A model generated the notes under the pieces. That model worked only from the letters and a program-made list of their open reading frames with translations. It had not been told where the DNA came from and made no database searches. Below, one piece after another: positions 3,337-12,385 of a stretch of 12,385 bases of DNA. The stretch is from positions 37,517-49,901 of the forward strand of contig JH993974.1 of assembly GCA_000316135.1 (NCBI GenBank), read 5' to 3'. Numbering within the stretch: the first letter of the stretch is position 1; every line of letters starts with the position of its first letter. The stretch comes from Trachipleistophora hominis. Lineage: Eukaryota > Microsporidia > Pleistophoridae. Made by a program: the position numbers and the translations under genes.

Positions 3337-3340
3337 GGAA

Positions 3341-3345
3341 GGGCT
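3341..3345 (-). promoter_or_regulatory. C-rich start-site motif of SPT3
   Basis: On the minus strand AGCCC ends 4 bases before ATG 3336 (AGCCCTTCC then ATG). Placement and sequence match the motif before the Ase1-like, eIF1A and Gag-like genes. It decides the start: the frame extends further upstream, but only with non-ATG codons. Confidence 0.6.
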
Positions 3346-4634
3346 GGAAGACAAGCCCGTGATAAAAATGGTTAATTTCAAAAATGTGCAAAGATATATT
3401 TTCACAATGCTTGTGTAGTACAGTAAAGTGCCCGTTACACCATTTTACCATCATAAAATTATTGTAAGCTGAAATATAAATACATCATAAAATTTATATT
3501 ACTATAAATCATCAAAACGCGTGTAAAAAGGGTAGTTTTTAATCAAAATTAATTTCGATAACCCCTTCGCTAAGAATGTATAAATTGTGCAAGACAAGCG
3601 CAGAATACAGCGTTGCGTTACTTTAGGAAGTGAATCGAAGTTCATAACGTTGCTAATAAGTTATATTATGGTATTATAAAATTACGATCTATCACGAATA
3701 TTGTTGGGAGTTATTTATATACGATTGAAAGACTTCCAATTTTTAATTTATCCTGATTAAATAATCTAATGTTGATGAATTCATTAATTGCTTGTCATAA
3801 GATAGGTGTGATGTACGTATTATTGTTAAATTATTCTCCTGTTCAAAAATTGTAACTGTTGTTATAGTGGATGCAAGGGACCTGTGAAATTGAATTTTAT
3901 GTTAAGCTAAATATATTTATCATACGTCCATACTACTACGGCATATCACATGTGAATCAAGGATACTGATGCTCTATTTAATTTAATAAAGCAGATTTCA
4001 TAAAAGGAGTGTTTTATTTTCATTATCTTTAAATGTCCTTTACGGGATTTTTGGAGGTAATTAAGAGGTTTCTAAGAAAAGAACGAATCGTCTGCGCACA
4101 AAAATCTCAATTGGCTATAATCTTTGTTTAGCCATGGTCATACTAAAAATTTAAGCAATCCTGTTAAATAAATGAATCTATTAGAACGGGTTCTGTGCGG
4201 TGATAGATGATTTTTAGAACATGTTATGTTATATTCAGTCAAATAAGCTAACTTTATTGTTCTTGTATATAAAAAATCAAATCAATTTATATTATCTGTG
4301 ACCAAATTCTCAGTTAAACATAAGCAAGATCTTTGTTTTTACCCATCATTCCTAAAAATGTTATGGATGAACTTTTATGAATGTTTTTCACACCAACCCT
4401 AAACTAAAATATATTTATTCATTATAACTCTACATCTATAAATCTGATATACTCTTCTCTGTGATTTTCATATATCGTGTAACATGACCGGTTTTATCTT
4501 CAATGCCTTACCAATCGATATGTACAATATGATCAAATCCTTATTTATTACAATGTAAGGTTTTATTTTTTTACAAAATAGAAAATATTTTAAATATTTG
4601 TTAAGCGGTATTGAAGAAATTCCTGTCATTGCAA
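3346..4634. other. Gene-poor region upstream of SPT3
   Basis: No defensible gene. Stop-poor frames are present but short. A minus-strand ATG frame at 3502-3645 gives 47 aa beginning MNFDSLPKVTQRCIL. A plus-strand frame at 4247-4399 is open for 51 codons without an early ATG. In the same plus frame, 4484-4648 is interrupted by one TAA at 4556. The two N-termini with an LP-x6-I/L pattern faintly recall F-box-like starts, but that is not enough to name a family. They may be gene relics or chance. No RNA gene, tandem repeat or terminal repeat was recognised. Confidence 0.4.
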
Positions 4635-4805
4635 TTATGTATTTCTGTTAACACCATTTGGTGTTCTAATAATAGTATTTGTCATATAACTACCACCTGT
4701 GGTTTTCAAATTTGCAATGGAAACAACTATCCTACGGCGTTGATAGAATCTTCTAGATGATTTGGGAGGCATTTTAATAAGTTCTGGTTTCCCACCTAAA
4801 ACCAT
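4635..4805 (-). CDS. Small basic hypothetical protein (56 aa)
   Basis: An uninterrupted ATG-to-stop frame of 56 codons lies in a patch that is visibly more GC-rich than the surrounding AT-rich DNA. The peptide is strongly basic, with an arginine cluster SSRRFYQRRR at residues 16-25 followed by a Thr/Gly/Asn-rich second half. Its amino-acid choice (Gly, Pro, Thr, Arg) is unlike the Ile/Lys/Phe/Asn-rich peptides that AT-rich noise gives. A second in-frame ATG at 4772 (residue 12) has GGTGGG about 18 bases upstream and may be the true start. No family is recognised. The cluster could bind RNA or DNA or act as a localisation signal, which is inference. There is no transmembrane segment. The opposite strand is also partly open here, so the call stays tentative. 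Confidence 0.35.
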   Translation of the reverse strand: MVLGGKPELIKMPPKSSRRFYQRRRIVVSIANLKTTGGSYMTNTIIRTPNGVNRNT

Positions 4806-5633
4806 ATTTAATTATGTTAATATTCACTTTTTCATCTCATAGAGATTCTTCTGATCTATTGGAATCAACTATAGCGTCCGTTTGATAGATTTCAGTTATC
4901 GATAGATAAATCGTCAGGTTGAGACTATGATAATCAGTGAAAAATTTATTTATATAAAATGTAAGACTTGTCTATCATAAGGAGTCTATCTTTAATCAAT
5001 ATATAACATGAAAATGTAACGTATAACTGTGAAATATAAACAAAAACGGTGAATATTTTAGTGTTTGTTATTGTAAAGCGAGTTCGTATTTATATTCAAT
5101 ACCATATGTATTGTATAAATGATAAGGTGTAAGGAAATACAGGAATGGCGAATAAGTTAAATAATAAAATGAAACAGAAGAGGAAAACATAATATTAAAA
5201 AGTTTTTTGATAGTGATAATCCCTTTCCATCAATAATAGATATAGTGTTCGTGTTAAGCGATAGAAATATTCGTTATCTCACATATACTTTAACATCAAT
5301 GTATTGCTTATACATCATAAAAACTGTGGTTCTACTATATTAGATCTGCTCGTACTTGTTATTAGTTATAACGCAGTGTTCTATAGTATCTTTTTAATAC
5401 AAGGTTAATATGATAAATTCGAACATCACATTCTGTTCTAGTTTAAAAGAATATGAAAGTCTAAAAATATTTTGGAGAGCGATTTCAAAAAAAATTCCGA
5501 AAGTAAAATATTTAGATGCATTTGTTGTTCAAGACCAAATTTATTTAACGTGTATATACAAACAATAGTCTTACAAGTTGTTGGTTAAAAGATACTGTGA
5601 ACGAGCGATAAGCGATTCAATCGTTTTAAATCG
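4806..5633. other. Intergenic region downstream of the Gag-like ORF
   Basis: Holds the 3' flank of the minus-strand Gag-like gene. A plus-strand ATG frame at 5410-5568 gives 52 aa with no known domain and no start motif. A second plus frame (5145-5343) reads through only if a frameshift near 5188 is assumed, then encodes a hydrophobic C-terminal stretch. Immediately past the Gag-like stop, the +1 frame of the minus strand stays open about 17 more codons. No zinc-knuckle (CX2CX4HX4C), protease or reverse-transcriptase motif was seen in it. Confidence 0.4.
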
Positions 5634-6410
5634 TCAACAATGGCTTCGAATTTCATCGGTGATTATTCTTTCCAGATCTATTAAATTTCTTGATATTTCT
5701 TTGATTCCATACAGACCATTCATCTCAAGATACACCAAAGTATCCATATCCAACCCGATTTTGAAATATTCATCGAGTGTCTTCTCATCAGGTTCAACAC
5801 CACCACCTCGTGATATCCATAGTTTGCTCGTTAAGTGTTTGATTTCATTTATGTAGTCCTCAATGTAGCAAAAGTCTTTTTGTTTTGTCGTCAATAATTT
5901 TTTAACAATCTCTCCTCGTCTATATGATGGAAAAACGTTACTTAACAATACTTTCAGCATATCATCAGAACAGGCCTGTCTCTTCAACGTTGGTTGAGAA
6001 GTATTGCTTGTCAATTCAAGTATATATTGCTTCTTAGCATCTTCGGTCCAACAAGCCTCTTGCGCAGCATTTTTAAACATGTGTACCCATTCCAGTACCT
6101 GGTCCTCATCATCGGTCATGAGGTAAGGCATTGTTCTAAATATTACTTTGTTGTTTCTATAAATGTTGTATGTGTAATTTTTCTGTGCTCTATGTTTGTT
6201 TTTGCGCATTCTCTTTCTTTGTGGCTTGAAGCACCGCCTCTTTAATCTCTCAAAACCATAGCAGAAATATTCTATGATGATTGATTTGTTCAAATGAGGT
6301 GGATTGCGTTTATAAATTGCGTTCCTTACGAGATATATTCTGTGTTCCTCAGAGCTAGACTCTACAGTTTGTGTAAGATCTAACGTTTTATAGTCTGGAT
6401 GGAAAGTCAT
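5634..6410 (-). CDS. Orphan retrotransposon Gag/capsid-like protein
   Basis: The 258-residue intact ORF has a C-terminal part resembling the capsid region of Ty3/gypsy-type Gag proteins, which form particle shells. The pattern runs in order from residue about 98 to 250: an acidic start then VLEWVHMFKNAAQEACW, an LLSNVFPSYRR segment, KKLLTTKQKDFCYIEDYINE (the KL-x3-KQ...V-x-Y-x-x-E/F pattern), and DEKTLDEYFKIGLDM (the DE-x3-x-x-F-x-x-GL pattern) ending in an LERII helix. Residues 54-77 form a Lys/Arg-rich cluster that could bind nucleic acid. No CCHC zinc knuckle is present and the last four residues are RSHC. No protease, reverse transcriptase, integrase or LTR was found around it. The ATG follows AGCCC by 9 bases, like host genes here. 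It is either an orphan Gag or a host-adopted capsid gene. The Gag resemblance is by pattern; a profile search would settle it. Confidence 0.68.
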   Translation of the reverse strand: MTFHPDYKTLDLTQTVESSSEEHRIYLVRNAIYKRNPPHLNKSIIIEYFCYGFERLKRRCFKPQRKRMRKNKHRAQKNYTYNIYRNNKVIFRTMPYLMTDDEDQVLEWVHMFKNAAQEACWTEDAKKQYILELTSNTSQPTLKRQACSDDMLKVLLSNVFPSYRRGEIVKKLLTTKQKDFCYIEDYINEIKHLTSKLWISRGGGVEPDEKTLDEYFKIGLDMDTLVYLEMNGLYGIKEISRNLIDLERIITDEIRSHC

Positions 6411-6419
6411 AGTACTTAT

Positions 6420-6424
6420 GGGCT
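6420..6424 (-). promoter_or_regulatory. C-rich start-site motif of the Gag-like gene
   Basis: On the minus strand AAGCCC precedes ATG 6410 with 9 bases between. This is the longest gap of the four examples in the window but the same core (AGCCC). It suggests the Gag-like ORF is transcribed from a host-type promoter rather than an LTR. Confidence 0.45.
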
Positions 6425-6498
6425 TGAGCAGAAGTTTATCGATTTTACTTTGTTGTATACCTGCTATGGAATGTATATGGTGCCAAACAAAGAAGGTT

Positions 6499-6526
6499 TA
6501 ATTAGTAGATATCAACTCACTAATTA
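6499..6526. repeat. Inverted repeat upstream of the Gag-like gene
   Basis: TAATTAGT (6499-6506) and ACTAATTA (6519-6526) form a perfect 8-bp stem with a 12-base loop containing GATATC. It lies about 90 bases upstream of the Gag-like start. The AT-rich composition makes a chance origin quite possible. Confidence 0.25.
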
Positions 6527-8217
6527 GATTAAATTATTTTTACATATATTTAGGCTTTGTTTTACTTATTTTATCTTCGAATCATCATATCTCTGCGATT
6601 TATAAAATTTTGATTATACTCTTAATCACGCTAGTAACTACTGCCTTTTACTTTGTAAAACACTAAAAATATGAAAATGATGAATTAGAGCATTGAATCT
6701 GGATTGGAAGAAATCATATCCAGTTTTATTTCATTACTTATACTAAGATGTTCCTCGCATTAGTTCGCCACTTTTATCAAGTAAATTATTTTCATGTTAA
6801 AAAAATGAAGAATGTTCTTAGAGTCATCGTTAGATTTAATAAAAATATTTTACCGCAGTAATATGGAAGTATGATAAATAAATTTTATTTCATTCATTCA
6901 ATAAAAATATTTGTACCAGATTAATACAGCACGTAAAATGTGAACGTTAATAAACTAACATTATAAATCATACACTTTACCATATATCCTCTTTCATACA
7001 TAATTTCCGTTTCTCAAAAGGTTGTACGAATTAAAACTAATATGGTTGTATAATAATTGTCTCTGTGTGATCAATACACTACTAAAAAGGATAAAATATA
7101 AAAATATTTGAGCCTTTCGACTAAACATGGACAGTTAAGAATCCTGGAAATCAAATAACGACTACGTTATTGACGATAAAGATCTAATAATTTCGTTATA
7201 ATAATATCATAATGCATTGGTCTTAATATATTATTTAATCAATCATTTTATACAAACAACATTACCACAATATAAAACATAAGCGGTACACAAACTATTG
7301 TTAATTATTTTGTAAATTACACATGTTTAGTTTAATATTTCATATAGAAATTCTCTTACCAGCTTATTAATAATTATACAGCGTAATAGGAGATAAACAT
7401 TGTAAAAGTTTAAATATTTTTTTAATTATTTCTAGTTGTCCTAATTAATATGAATTTTATTTATTACTTCAATTACTCCTCATCACACTCAGTGTTAGAA
7501 TTTGTTTTGTATTTAACCTTATCATGTAAATGGCTGTATAAAAGTACATAACACAAAATATTTTATTTTGATAATATTACATTACGGGGTTTTATTCAAG
7601 GATAATGTGATAAACATCCGTTAGATGCGTTTGTATTTTCATTTTCCTTATGTAAGGTTTAATTTTATTTACGGACATTGTGTATATCAGTCTTGTAACG
7701 CAATTATAATTTATTAATCAACTCTTTTGCTAAGCGCTGTCTTTAATCTGATAAATGGACAAGAAAAAAGTCTTTGTATTTCTCAAACGCACTAATATTT
7801 GTACATACGCGATCAGGAAGTACTTTGCTCCGTTTTTATATCACAGAAGAATCTATTTATCATAGAGTTGTAGTACTAACATTTTTTTATATGATGAAGA
7901 GAAGTTCTCTCTTTATCTATCACTTGTTTAAAGAAACATGAGAACTGTTTAGATAAAAACGATGTATACAATGAATATTGTGGCTTTAATGAGGAGTAGA
8001 AATGTGTGTATGTTATAGAGAAGATAAATAAAGACACTTTTACAAAAACATTTGATAAATAGACCACGGTGCACTTTTTAGTGAATGACATATTAGAAAT
8101 GTACTTGAAACGGTGTTTCAAACTATATCCTTATATACCACCTCAAAGGGATGAATAAACGTGATGAAGTTTCCTATCTCTACAGTAGACAGTAAGGACT
8201 AAAAAACGTTCTGTATG

Positions 8218-8340
8218 TTACACATCGAACAGATGGTGGTATAAATTAACTTGCTTAAACAGTCCATTAGCCCTTATTAATTTTTCTAGCTTGGTGTGAC
8301 CACTCCTGATGACGTAAATTATAGAATAAACGGATCGCAT
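8218..8340 (-). CDS. Doubtful micro-ORF upstream of eIF1A (40 aa)
   Basis: ATG-to-stop frame of 40 codons in a locally GC-richer patch, divergent from eIF1A. The peptide starts MRSVYSIIYVIRSGHTKLEK and has a balanced composition, but it has no domain, no C-rich start motif and no neighbour that suggests a role. It is listed so that it is not lost; it may well be chance or part of the eIF1A promoter region. Confidence 0.15.
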   Translation of the reverse strand: MRSVYSIIYVIRSGHTKLEKLIRANGLFKQVNLYHHLFDV

Positions 8341-8440
8341 CGATTTAATAAGGCATATCCTTCATTATTTTTATGAAACGCCTTGTTTCAGAAATTACGT
8401 AATATTCACGGCAAATCACCAAATACAAAATTTTTCAAAA

Positions 8441-8443
8441 CCC
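8441..8443 (+). promoter_or_regulatory. C-rich start-site motif of eIF1A
   Basis: AAACCCATA immediately precedes ATG 8447, with CCC ending 3 bases upstream. It is the same layout as the Ase1-like and SPT3 starts and fits a very short 5' leader. Confidence 0.6.
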
Positions 8444-8446
8444 ATA

Positions 8447-9429: not shown

Positions 9430-9900
9430 TTATGAGAATAATTTTCCAGCGAAAAAGAATGCAACACCAACTACAATAAGCAACACAACAACAATTATCC
9501 CTGTTTTTGCTCGTCTCATTCTTATATTGTGCCTAACAGTGCTTATAAACCTACTGTTTAGAAATATGATAAACGGCTCAAGTCGTTCTCCTTCCTTAAG
9601 TTTTTCCATCTCTTTTCTATTCTTCACATATTCAACTATGTCATCGATTTGTACTGTCAAAATATCGTTTTGCATGAGAACTCCGCTCTGTTGCATTTTT
9701 CCACTCTTGATTTTTGGAATATGAATTTCTGTCTGTTTTGCTTCTTCCGGTTTTTCTTCGACAGGCTCAACATTTTTAGCTGACTCAGTCTTCGCAGGCT
9801 CCTCCTTCTGACTCTGTTCTTCTGGCTGTTCGTCTTTCTTCACCTCTTCTTGCTTTGGTTCTTCATCTCTCACTTCTTCTTTCTTTTCGCTTTTTGGCAT
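9430..9900 (-). CDS. Hypothetical tail-anchored membrane protein with Lys/Glu-rich arm
   Basis: The 156-aa protein from ATG 9900 has three zones. Residues about 2-58 are low-complexity, almost only E, K, P, Q and S (SEKKEEVRDEEPKQEE and similar), so disordered. Residues about 60-125 look folded, with an ILTVQIDDIVEYVKNRKEME segment. A single hydrophobic helix at about 133-152 (GIIVVVLLIVVGVAFFF) follows a basic RMRRAK stretch and leaves only about four residues, the layout of a tail-anchored protein facing the cytosol. The target is probably ER or another endomembrane, by inference. It is not a clear SNARE (no long heptad with a central Q or R layer) and not Sec61-beta (too long). Unlike the other four genes it has no C-rich motif before its ATG; a hairpin lies about 60 bases upstream. 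The frame extends two codons further, but only through a GTG. Confidence 0.78.
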   Translation of the reverse strand: MPKSEKKEEVRDEEPKQEEVKKDEQPEEQSQKEEPAKTESAKNVEPVEEKPEEAKQTEIHIPKIKSGKMQQSGVLMQNDILTVQIDDIVEYVKNRKEMEKLKEGERLEPFIIFLNSRFISTVRHNIRMRRAKTGIIVVVLLIVVGVAFFFAGKLFS

Positions 9901-9961
9901 GTTCACTAAAAACTGTGATGTTTTATGAAATACTTTTTTATAGCTAACGAATAAATTAAGA

Positions 9962-9983
9962 ACTCCTTATTCATTTAAGGAGT
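9962..9983. repeat. Hairpin upstream of the tail-anchored protein gene
   Basis: ACTCCTTA (9962-9969) and TAAGGAGT (9976-9983) form a perfect 8-bp stem around a 6-base loop. It lies 62-83 bases upstream of ATG 9900, in the promoter or leader of the only accepted gene that lacks the C-rich start motif. A link to its expression is speculative. Confidence 0.3.
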
Positions 9984-10183
9984 CTTTTGATCGTTCTGTC
10001 ATTAATTTGTCACTAATAATCTTTAGAATATTTGTGTAAATGACTTTGCAGCAATTTATAAATCAAAATATACTCTTTTGTTACTTATTATGGAAAGTAT
10101 AATATTTCAAAAGGGTTGACTTTCTGTTTTTATATGAACACATTTCTGTTTTAAGTACAAAATTAATGTTATAAGGGATTTGA

Positions 10184-10416
10184 ATGCCTCTTTCTGACAA
10201 ATTATTTTATTTATTTATCAATACTAATGGAAATGTTGTGTTTCAACACTGATAATAAATATTTTCAGGAAACACATCCCTGTTTCCGGGCATTTTATTC
10301 GTAACCATAATGAAGAAAATAATTTGTTTAAATCGCTTCAAAATTTTATGATAGTCTTTTTAACTTGCGAAACAAACACGTCTTTTGCTTCAAATGTGAT
10401 ATTTACTCCTTTTTAG
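10184..10416 (+). pseudogene. Possible broken or spliced small gene (plus strand)
   Basis: ATG 10184 follows AAGGGATTTGA and opens 22 codons (MPLSDKLFYLFINTNGNVVF and so on) to a TGA at 10250. From 10228 another phase is open for 62 codons to a TAG at 10414. A sequence ending TATTTTCAG (10267) resembles a 3' splice site. Removing about 29 bases before it would join the two frames, but the matching GT has a poor donor sequence. A frameshifted relic or chance is at least as likely as an intron. No firm family. Confidence 0.18.
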
Positions 10417-11020
10417 CTGCCACGTCATAAGTGCAAAGGTAATAGGGGCAAGATCAAACATCGATTTGTCTTTGTACTGATAGAGGACAAATGTTAAACA
10501 TAATAACGAATAAACAAAGACGCCTACCTAAAAACAATTATAATACGATCACTAAAGGTGTGATCGAGTAAAAATGATCATGTTCTTTGGTGATGTGTAT
10601 GAAAAGATGTTAACATTTAATTTATGTGTTATGTTACTATAATAATTATTATCATTTACAAATAACCACATGCTACATTGAGGCTTGGCGCAATATTTCC
10701 TTCCAGTTATACTTTTATGAAAAATATATTGTGAAAGCCTAGTAACCTCGACTTACCATTTAGGTAATATATTAGTATTGATTTACCCGCGTGGGGTGTT
10801 GAAGATAAATTCTTAACTAAAAGTAAAGAACGGAAGCCGTGATAAAGGGGTTGTAAACCTAGGAGCATTCATTTTAGGTTTTATTCGTAGTAACACTGTA
10901 AGACATTGAATAAGAGATCGTTTTATAGCGCTTTTCTCTCTATATTGGGGCATATCACAGTCCTCAGAACGGTAGGCTATTCTTTAAATGGCCTTTTTTT
11001 GAAGAGAAATTGCGGTTCAT
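10390..11020 (-). pseudogene. Possible decayed gene (minus strand)
   Basis: Overlapping minus-strand frames run in series: ATG 11020 (short), 10983-10813 (56 codons open, ATG at 10953), ATG 10868 to 10707 (53 codons), 10752-10555 (66 codons) and 10527-10390 (45 codons, with two hydrophobic stretches near the end). Together they would cover about 200 codons with roughly three frameshifts and three stops. Local GC is about 35-38%, as in real genes, against about 22% further right. The caveat is serious: the plus strand is also open over parts of it (for example 10929-11078), so neither the strand nor the coding nature is certain. No family is recognised. Confidence 0.2.
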
Positions 11021-12223
11021 TGCAATATTATTGAATTCTTGTAAGTTAAAACTTTATCTTGTACCAAGAGTGCTTTGATAGTAATATAATTTTTTAGTTT
11101 TAATATCAAGATGTGCTATTTTATTGTGTATTATTTTCAGGTATTAGTATGTTTTAACTTTTAAATTTGATAGTGGTGATGATAATATCAATTTCAGGTG
11201 AATATTAACGTATGATTTGTTATTATCAAACTTTTGTACAGTCGTATTCATAAATCAGAGGTTTGTTACCATAGTCAGCCCAATGTGCCAAAGAAGTATA
11301 TGTAAGATGGAGAATTGAGTGAAATGATAATCTAATACAATACACATTTAGTAAAAATGTAGGAAGTAATAATGATTATAACCTGAATAAGAATAACATT
11401 ACGATAACTGCTGTTAAAGTTATAATCTTTTTGTCCCTGGAATATCTTACATTTTGATTGCCATAAAAATTGGAGTGAACAATCACTAAATATTTACAAC
11501 GTTAATTATTCCTGAAACTAATGATCAACTTTGTGACTTATAAAAAACGATTATTAAAACGAATACTTTATCACAAAAATTCTCTTTACGTTCAACTCTA
11601 CTATATCTTATGATTTACATACGTTAATTATCGTTTCTAAAAGTAATTATGGGATAATGTAACCAACACTTCAACCTAAAAAATACGAGAAAACTTCAAG
11701 ATTTTACCTCATATATCAGAGAACGATTCATTTTGACATAGCGTATATTTAATGGTATTATTAGAAATAAATCATAAGGTTACTTTAATATTCATTTAAA
11801 CAGTTATTATAAGAAGGTATAATGTTTATACACATCATACACGTATAATAGGACGTACTGTCATCACTAAAGGTACTTCCATAAGGCAATATTCCGATAC
11901 AACTACAATTTTTCGAATAATTATCAATATAAAACAAAATCATCCTTTATATAATAATTATATTGTCATAGTGGATTAACTGAATCGTTGTATTCAAACA
12001 CCTTTGAAAATCAAAAAATATCGTATAATCCATTTATATATTTCAACATACATAATGACATTAATTCTTGAATGCTCGCTTATTATTTTTTCTTTATTCT
12101 TCTTTTACTTTTTATTCATTAACCAAATTCATATTTTAGTGCATGCTACGTTTAAATAAGCTCATAATACACGTCTGAACTGTCGTCTAAAACCAATTCA
12201 AAATTAACTACTTTTTCAACTTT

Positions 12224-12261
12224 GGGGGACCAAATAATATTATTTGCGTCACAAATGGGGG
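12224..12261. repeat. 16-bp perfect palindrome between two G5 runs
   Basis: CAAATAATATTATTTG (12231-12246) is its own reverse complement. GGGGG at 12224-12228 and again at 12257-12261 flank it in direct orientation. G5 runs are rare in this AT-rich sequence. No start codon follows at the spacing seen for the C-rich gene-start motif on either strand. Role unknown. Confidence 0.35.
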
Positions 12262-12385
12262 TTTATCAATTTCAAGCAAGATTAAATTCGTTAGTGCAAA
12301 AATCGTTGTAATGCATATAAATACTTATGAATGGTGTGACGTAGTGAGGTGAGTGGTAACTGAAGTAGTAAGTAAATTATATTTT

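Follow-up and report, generated by a model that had tools for sequence, protein, structure and literature searches.

A lineage-specific gene of the microsporidian Trachipleistophora hominis, apparently kept by selection and possibly derived from a retrotransposon capsid

The described systems closest to the gene reported here are Arc and the domesticated capsids of animal Metaviridae (Ty3/Gypsy) and, in yeast, Drt2 and the Ty1 restriction factor p22/p18. Among four ancestral proxy metaviruses, the ARC-like one alone is without NC (PMC11011659). Drt2 derives from the GAG of Ty1', a source element that is both present and inhibited (PMC10951436). In the CA of Ty3, a lobe of four helices precedes one of five (PMC6525542). 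The LTR elements found in microsporidia are placed in the Ty3/Gypsy group, with gag and pol forming one polyprotein (PMC4202319), and this placement would make Ty3/Gypsy the likely source of the 258-amino-acid (aa) gene described below. For Vavraia culicis the same survey gives three transposable elements in total (Parisot et al., PMC4202319). A domesticated gag in microsporidia was not found in the open-licence literature, as judged from search listings.

Here we analyse a window of 12,385 nucleotides (the whole stretch of DNA under study) from T. hominis, in which a sequence-only reading had proposed an intact orphan capsid gene kept by the host. The features discussed are as follows, with positions counted within the window.

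5634..6410, minus strand: candidate capsid-derived gene, ORF P0001 with its stop codon, 258 aa
6420..6422, minus strand: CCC start signal, in AAGCCCATAAGTACT ahead of the ATG, starting at -12
6129..6410, minus strand: N-terminal part, residues 1-94, calculated pI 10.3
6180..6242, minus strand: Lys/Arg cluster, residues 57-77, KRRCFKPQRKRMRKNKHRAQK
5637..6128, minus strand: residues 95-258, the capsid-like part (calculated pI 4.9; low-confidence models show eight helices)
5820..5969, minus strand: residues 148-197, whose V. culicis counterpart aligns with positions 29-77 of the 97 in the Retrotrans_gag profile (E 0.0047, sub-threshold)
5871..5930, minus strand: residues 161-180, PSYRRGEIVKKLLTTKQKDF, 0/20 differences from V. 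culicis, within the gag-like stretch
9430..9900, minus strand: 156-aa ORF whose N-terminal half is charged and whose C-terminus is hydrophobic

The 258-aa ORF is a real gene. It is unbroken and the only one in its interval, and its stop-to-stop frame runs to 287 codons; the longest stop-free run in first-order Markov simulations (n=300) of the 5.1-kb stretch 3337-8446 had a mean of 89 codons and a maximum of 148. The gene gave one match in its own 5.5-Mb assembly, which as searched comprises 119 contigs, is possibly incomplete and has some stretches masked. With an unbroken frame, a single match and no adjoining element, the description of the gene as intact and orphan holds. The proposed host-type start motif was likewise confirmed, in the form of the CCC starting at -12. 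Four of the five main genes of the window have a CCC no more than 15 nt upstream of the start, compared with 5 of 308 intergenic ATGs, and the exact AGCCC is found upstream of three of the five. For microsporidia a CCC-like start signal has been described (PMC2803860), and the CCC of the 258-aa gene agrees with it. The Lys/Arg cluster is indeed present ahead of the capsid-like part, where it is a candidate RNA-binding arm or nuclear signal. Inspection by eye found no CxxC in the protein, which therefore has no zinc knuckle, as had been reported.

The neighbouring genes are ASE1/MAP65-like, SPT3/TAF13-like and eIF1A genes, as identified with Pfam, and the 156-aa ORF. No retroelement domain was listed by Pfam at E <=10 for the five main ORFs of the window, and neither RVT_1 nor the integrase core rve had a match on the contig that carries the gene (C58). 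Between the flanking genes (3337-8446), direct repeats of at least 18 nt amount to only two pairs, of 20-21 nt, and we therefore see no LTR at the gene. The earlier statement that no pol, protease, integrase or LTR is visible is thus borne out for the main ORFs and the intervening DNA. Scans with Rfam and for tRNAs returned nothing in the window.

A dispersed non-coding repeat is present in two outward-facing copies that flank the gene, at 3909-3941 (minus strand) and 6853-6885 (plus strand). Its 24-nt core has 27 matches in the genome at up to three mismatches, both flanking copies counted, and the core pattern read backwards has none; in many of the copies the similarity spans some 60 nt, and contig C52 carries a tandem array of related sequence. 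The spacers at 3337-5633, 6411-8446 and 9901-12385 measure 2.0-2.5 kb at about 28% GC, roomy for a microsporidian, and contain no ATG-started ORF of at least 80 aa. The 156-aa ORF possibly encodes a tail-anchored protein; it has no Pfam family above the cut-off and lacks a CCC in the 15 nt upstream of its start.

An ortholog of the 258-aa gene, VCUG_00673, was found in Vavraia culicis floridensis, where it is annotated solely as 'hypothetical protein'. The two proteins are collinear without gaps, both 258 aa long, and 78% identical, compared with 83% for the SPT3/TAF13-like neighbour. About 5.8 billion proteins were searched by a method that depends on shared five-residue words; among the 166 candidates scored, VCUG_00673 was the one relative besides the query itself. 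The same kind of search with the SPT3-like neighbour returned nine relatives besides its own record, among them the 83% identical V. culicis protein and one from Pseudoloma neurophilia at 53% identity. Because V. culicis supplies the sole relative while the neighbour has nine, the 258-aa gene looks confined to the Trachipleistophora/Vavraia lineage, within the reach of a word-based search. Relatives of Gag-Pol size were sought with a 774-aa query made of three copies of the V. culicis protein, residues 96-258 alone being scored; the tripled query let the length filter admit proteins of about 426-1354 aa by its stated rule, and none of the 333 candidates reached E <=10. Scans of viral contigs with the two-species alignment and with an RT piece gave no relative, and tblastn of phages gave no match.

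Differences between the two species are spread unevenly along the protein: 11 of 20 positions differ in residues 1-20, one of 20 in residues 221-240 and none in residues 161-180. These changes were compared with a neutral null run to 58 amino-acid differences with 1500 runs at each of three transition/transversion settings. Under the null 5.1-6.3 stops were expected and none was seen (P 0.0007-0.0067), conservative changes numbered 31 against 17.8-21.2 expected (P 0.0007-0.0027), and the changes were more clumped along the protein than under the null (P 0.0007-0.0027); the three measures are not independent of one another and are distinct from dN/dS. The substitution pattern rejects neutral drift and therefore supports the view that the protein is being kept by selection across the two species. 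The claim that the host has kept the gene is thus supported, both by this pattern and by the intact frame in V. culicis. The expectation of an ortholog at the same locus fared less evenly: the ortholog exists, but on the one side compared the SPT3-like neighbour lies elsewhere in V. culicis. There VCUG_00673 is on a 146-kb contig and the SPT3-like VCUG_01619 on one of 82 kb; on that side, then, the two species do not share gene order.

The case for a capsid begins with the order of segments. Every segment quoted in the sequence-only reading as typical of retrotransposon capsids is present in the order given: VLEW at residues 105-108, LLSNVF and RR within 155-165, KLLTTKQ at 171-177, YINE at 186-189 and DE...FKIGL at 208-220. 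The predicted Gag profile match was found only in part. For the window protein there was none: Pfam listed no Gag family at E <=10 for either full-length ortholog, and Retrotrans_gag was not listed for the window-protein pieces 95-258, 141-258, 96-221 and 148-221. In trimmed V. culicis pieces, however, Retrotrans_gag (PF03732) did appear, at best in piece 96-221 (E 0.0047; 17.5 bits, below the cut-off of 24.1), then in 96-258 (E 0.012) and 148-221 (E 0.22), and it was not listed for 148-258. The outcome varies with the trimming of the ortholog, and the pieces given are all those tried against Pfam. Since the best score lies below the curated cut-off, we do not assign the gene to Retrotrans_gag; it is a candidate for a wider kind, the domesticated capsid genes.

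How much such a match is worth can be judged from controls. Retrotrans_gag was absent from two reversed and six shuffled controls at E <=10 and from ten other proteins at E <=1. An unrelated family, PreP_C (PF22516), scored as well as or better than Retrotrans_gag, with E-values of 0.00097 to 0.023 in both orthologs and a best score of 19.2 bits, below its curated cut-off of 27. Chance-like matches were obtained for Baculo_PEP_C in a coiled-coil ORF (E 0.00029), DUF5659 in the SPT3-like protein (E 0.015) and Init_tRNA_PT in a shuffled control (E 0.032). Because the controls gave values similar to that of the Gag match, E-values of this size arise without homology, and only its prior prediction distinguishes the Retrotrans_gag match from the chance-like ones. 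No family in Pfam, NCBIfam or PHROGs was above threshold.

That the C-terminal 164 residues form a two-lobed capsid domain is weakly supported. AlphaFold models reached a mean pLDDT of 39.1 and 40.5 (two-sequence alignment; residues 95-258 alone), and at this confidence, too low to probe the fold, they show eight helices for the capsid-like part, where Ty3 CA has four plus five. Foldseek and VIA-align searches with these models returned P450s, a thiol oxidase and others, which we do not read as relatives; since model confidence is low, the lack of a Gag among these matches counts neither for nor against a capsid. Sequence searches of the PDB gave no relative, the matches being chance-level kinases and one dehydrogenase.

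The main rival explanation is that the gene is an unrelated helical orphan of the Trachipleistophora/Vavraia lineage, in which a Gag-like order of helices arose by chance, and which, with its basic N-terminal part, may for example bind RNA or chromatin. We give this a substantial chance, though one clearly below even. The lack of any above-threshold family, the restriction to one other species, the score of PreP_C and the equally strong sub-threshold matches in the controls are all as this explanation would have it, and genes restricted to T. hominis and V. culicis have been described (PMC4654818). Against it stands the fact that Retrotrans_gag was predicted beforehand and then turned up in the ortholog where it was expected. 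On balance we lean slightly towards a capsid origin. Our best explanation, which we hold to have marginally better than an even chance, is a lineage-specific gene under purifying selection that most likely began as the Gag capsid of an LTR retrotransposon, the rest of that element's genes having disappeared. Of the original proposal of a capsid gene kept by the host, 'kept' stands on the selection pattern, while 'capsid' is likely but unproven, the Gag match being sub-threshold.

It is also conceivable that the gene belongs, as its gag, to an LTR element that still moves or was inserted recently, and whose pol and LTRs were lost or missed. Retroelement remnants do occur in the genome. RVT_1 gave nine matches on seven contigs (C108, C111, C45, C16, C107, C12 and C21), seven of them over the cut-off and five of the nine with stops inside, and rve gave one match, with a stop. 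On C108 the integrase core follows the RT, which is the order of Ty3/Gypsy elements, and a CCHC knuckle can be made out by eye. No similar Gag was seen by eye in the remnants on C108 and C16, the two inspected most closely. The seven RT loci fetched yielded 272 stop-to-stop frames of 60 aa or longer, counting masked runs, and none was convincingly similar to the 258-aa protein, the best reaching E 0.012 at 21% identity; broken Gag pieces below 60 aa would escape this search. The best-matching ORF resembles a ubiquitin-specific protease. Besides these remnants, the neighbourhood that differs from V. culicis on the SPT3-like side would suit an insertion. Nevertheless, the single match in the genome, the lack of LTR-like repeats, an intact and constrained frame in two species and the seven RT loci without a convincing counterpart make a mobile or recent gag improbable. 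Indeed, neither many near-identical copies followed by pol nor a full-length element with a matching Gag was found in the genome, in agreement with the gene's having been proposed as host-kept.

Profile searches of the genome with Retrotrans_gag and Ty3_capsid gave no match, but control searches were equally empty, so that little follows from them; Retrotran_gag_2 gave none either. A zf-CCHC search listed one match, a 270-aa ORF with several knuckles on contig C114 (L020 1123-1935, plus strand), and missed the knuckle on C108. The 270-aa ORF was rejected as a Gag on account of its several knuckles and its likeness to proteins of the Air1/2 type. Large related ORFs lie near the RT matches in loci L013, L016 and L017, those of L013 and L016 being near-identical; they resemble leucine-rich-repeat proteins. 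T. hominis has a described leucine-rich-repeat family of 117 members (PMC3486916).

That the gene is a piece of a presequence-protease-like (M16C) protein is very improbable: the PF22516 matches, seen in both orthologs in pieces containing residues 107-192, would point that way, but they stay below the cut-off and cover about half of the PreP_C profile, and no catalytic M16 domain is listed for the ORF.

If the gene does descend from a capsid, the ancestral step would have been the retention of the Gag capsid of an LTR retrotransposon and the loss of the element's other genes. The basic N-terminal arm may bind RNA or direct the protein to the nucleus, the acidic capsid-like part may self-associate, and the product might then assemble on RNA into oligomers or shells, in the manner of Arc. 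We offer only as a tentative proposal, with a chance a little short of even, that this is a domesticated retrotransposon capsid which a single microsporidian lineage retained while genomes shrank, and that it encodes an RNA-binding protein able to self-assemble, carries a new N-terminal arm and arose independently of Arc, dArc and Drt2. Restriction or control of a present-day retroelement is less likely, since the genome yielded no element with a related Gag; this suggested role is left without support, there being no related element found as its target. A capsid origin, if true, would extend capsid domestication to a parasite group known for gene loss and would provide a small protein for asking whether such capsids package RNA. 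If false, the 258-aa gene is an ordinary lineage-specific gene.

How, then, does the gene compare with known systems? Like Drt2 of Saccharomyces (PMC10951436) and Ty1 p22/p18 (PMC12530519), it is a stand-alone fungal gene with a proposed capsid part. It differs from Drt2 and p22 in that no related element was found and in that it is not a bare C-terminal capsid domain. It differs too from the microsporidian Ty3/Gypsy elements, since the remnants on C108 and C16 have no similar Gag by eye and C108 retains its CCHC knuckle. Arc-type genes stand apart from it in that it is microsporidian, with a sub-threshold capsid homology and a putative fold and assembly. Nevertheless, it shares with Arc and the domesticated capsids of animal Metaviridae the status of an orphan without pol, a C-terminal capsid-like part, the absence of an NC zinc knuckle, an N-terminal extension and, to judge from its substitutions, purifying selection.
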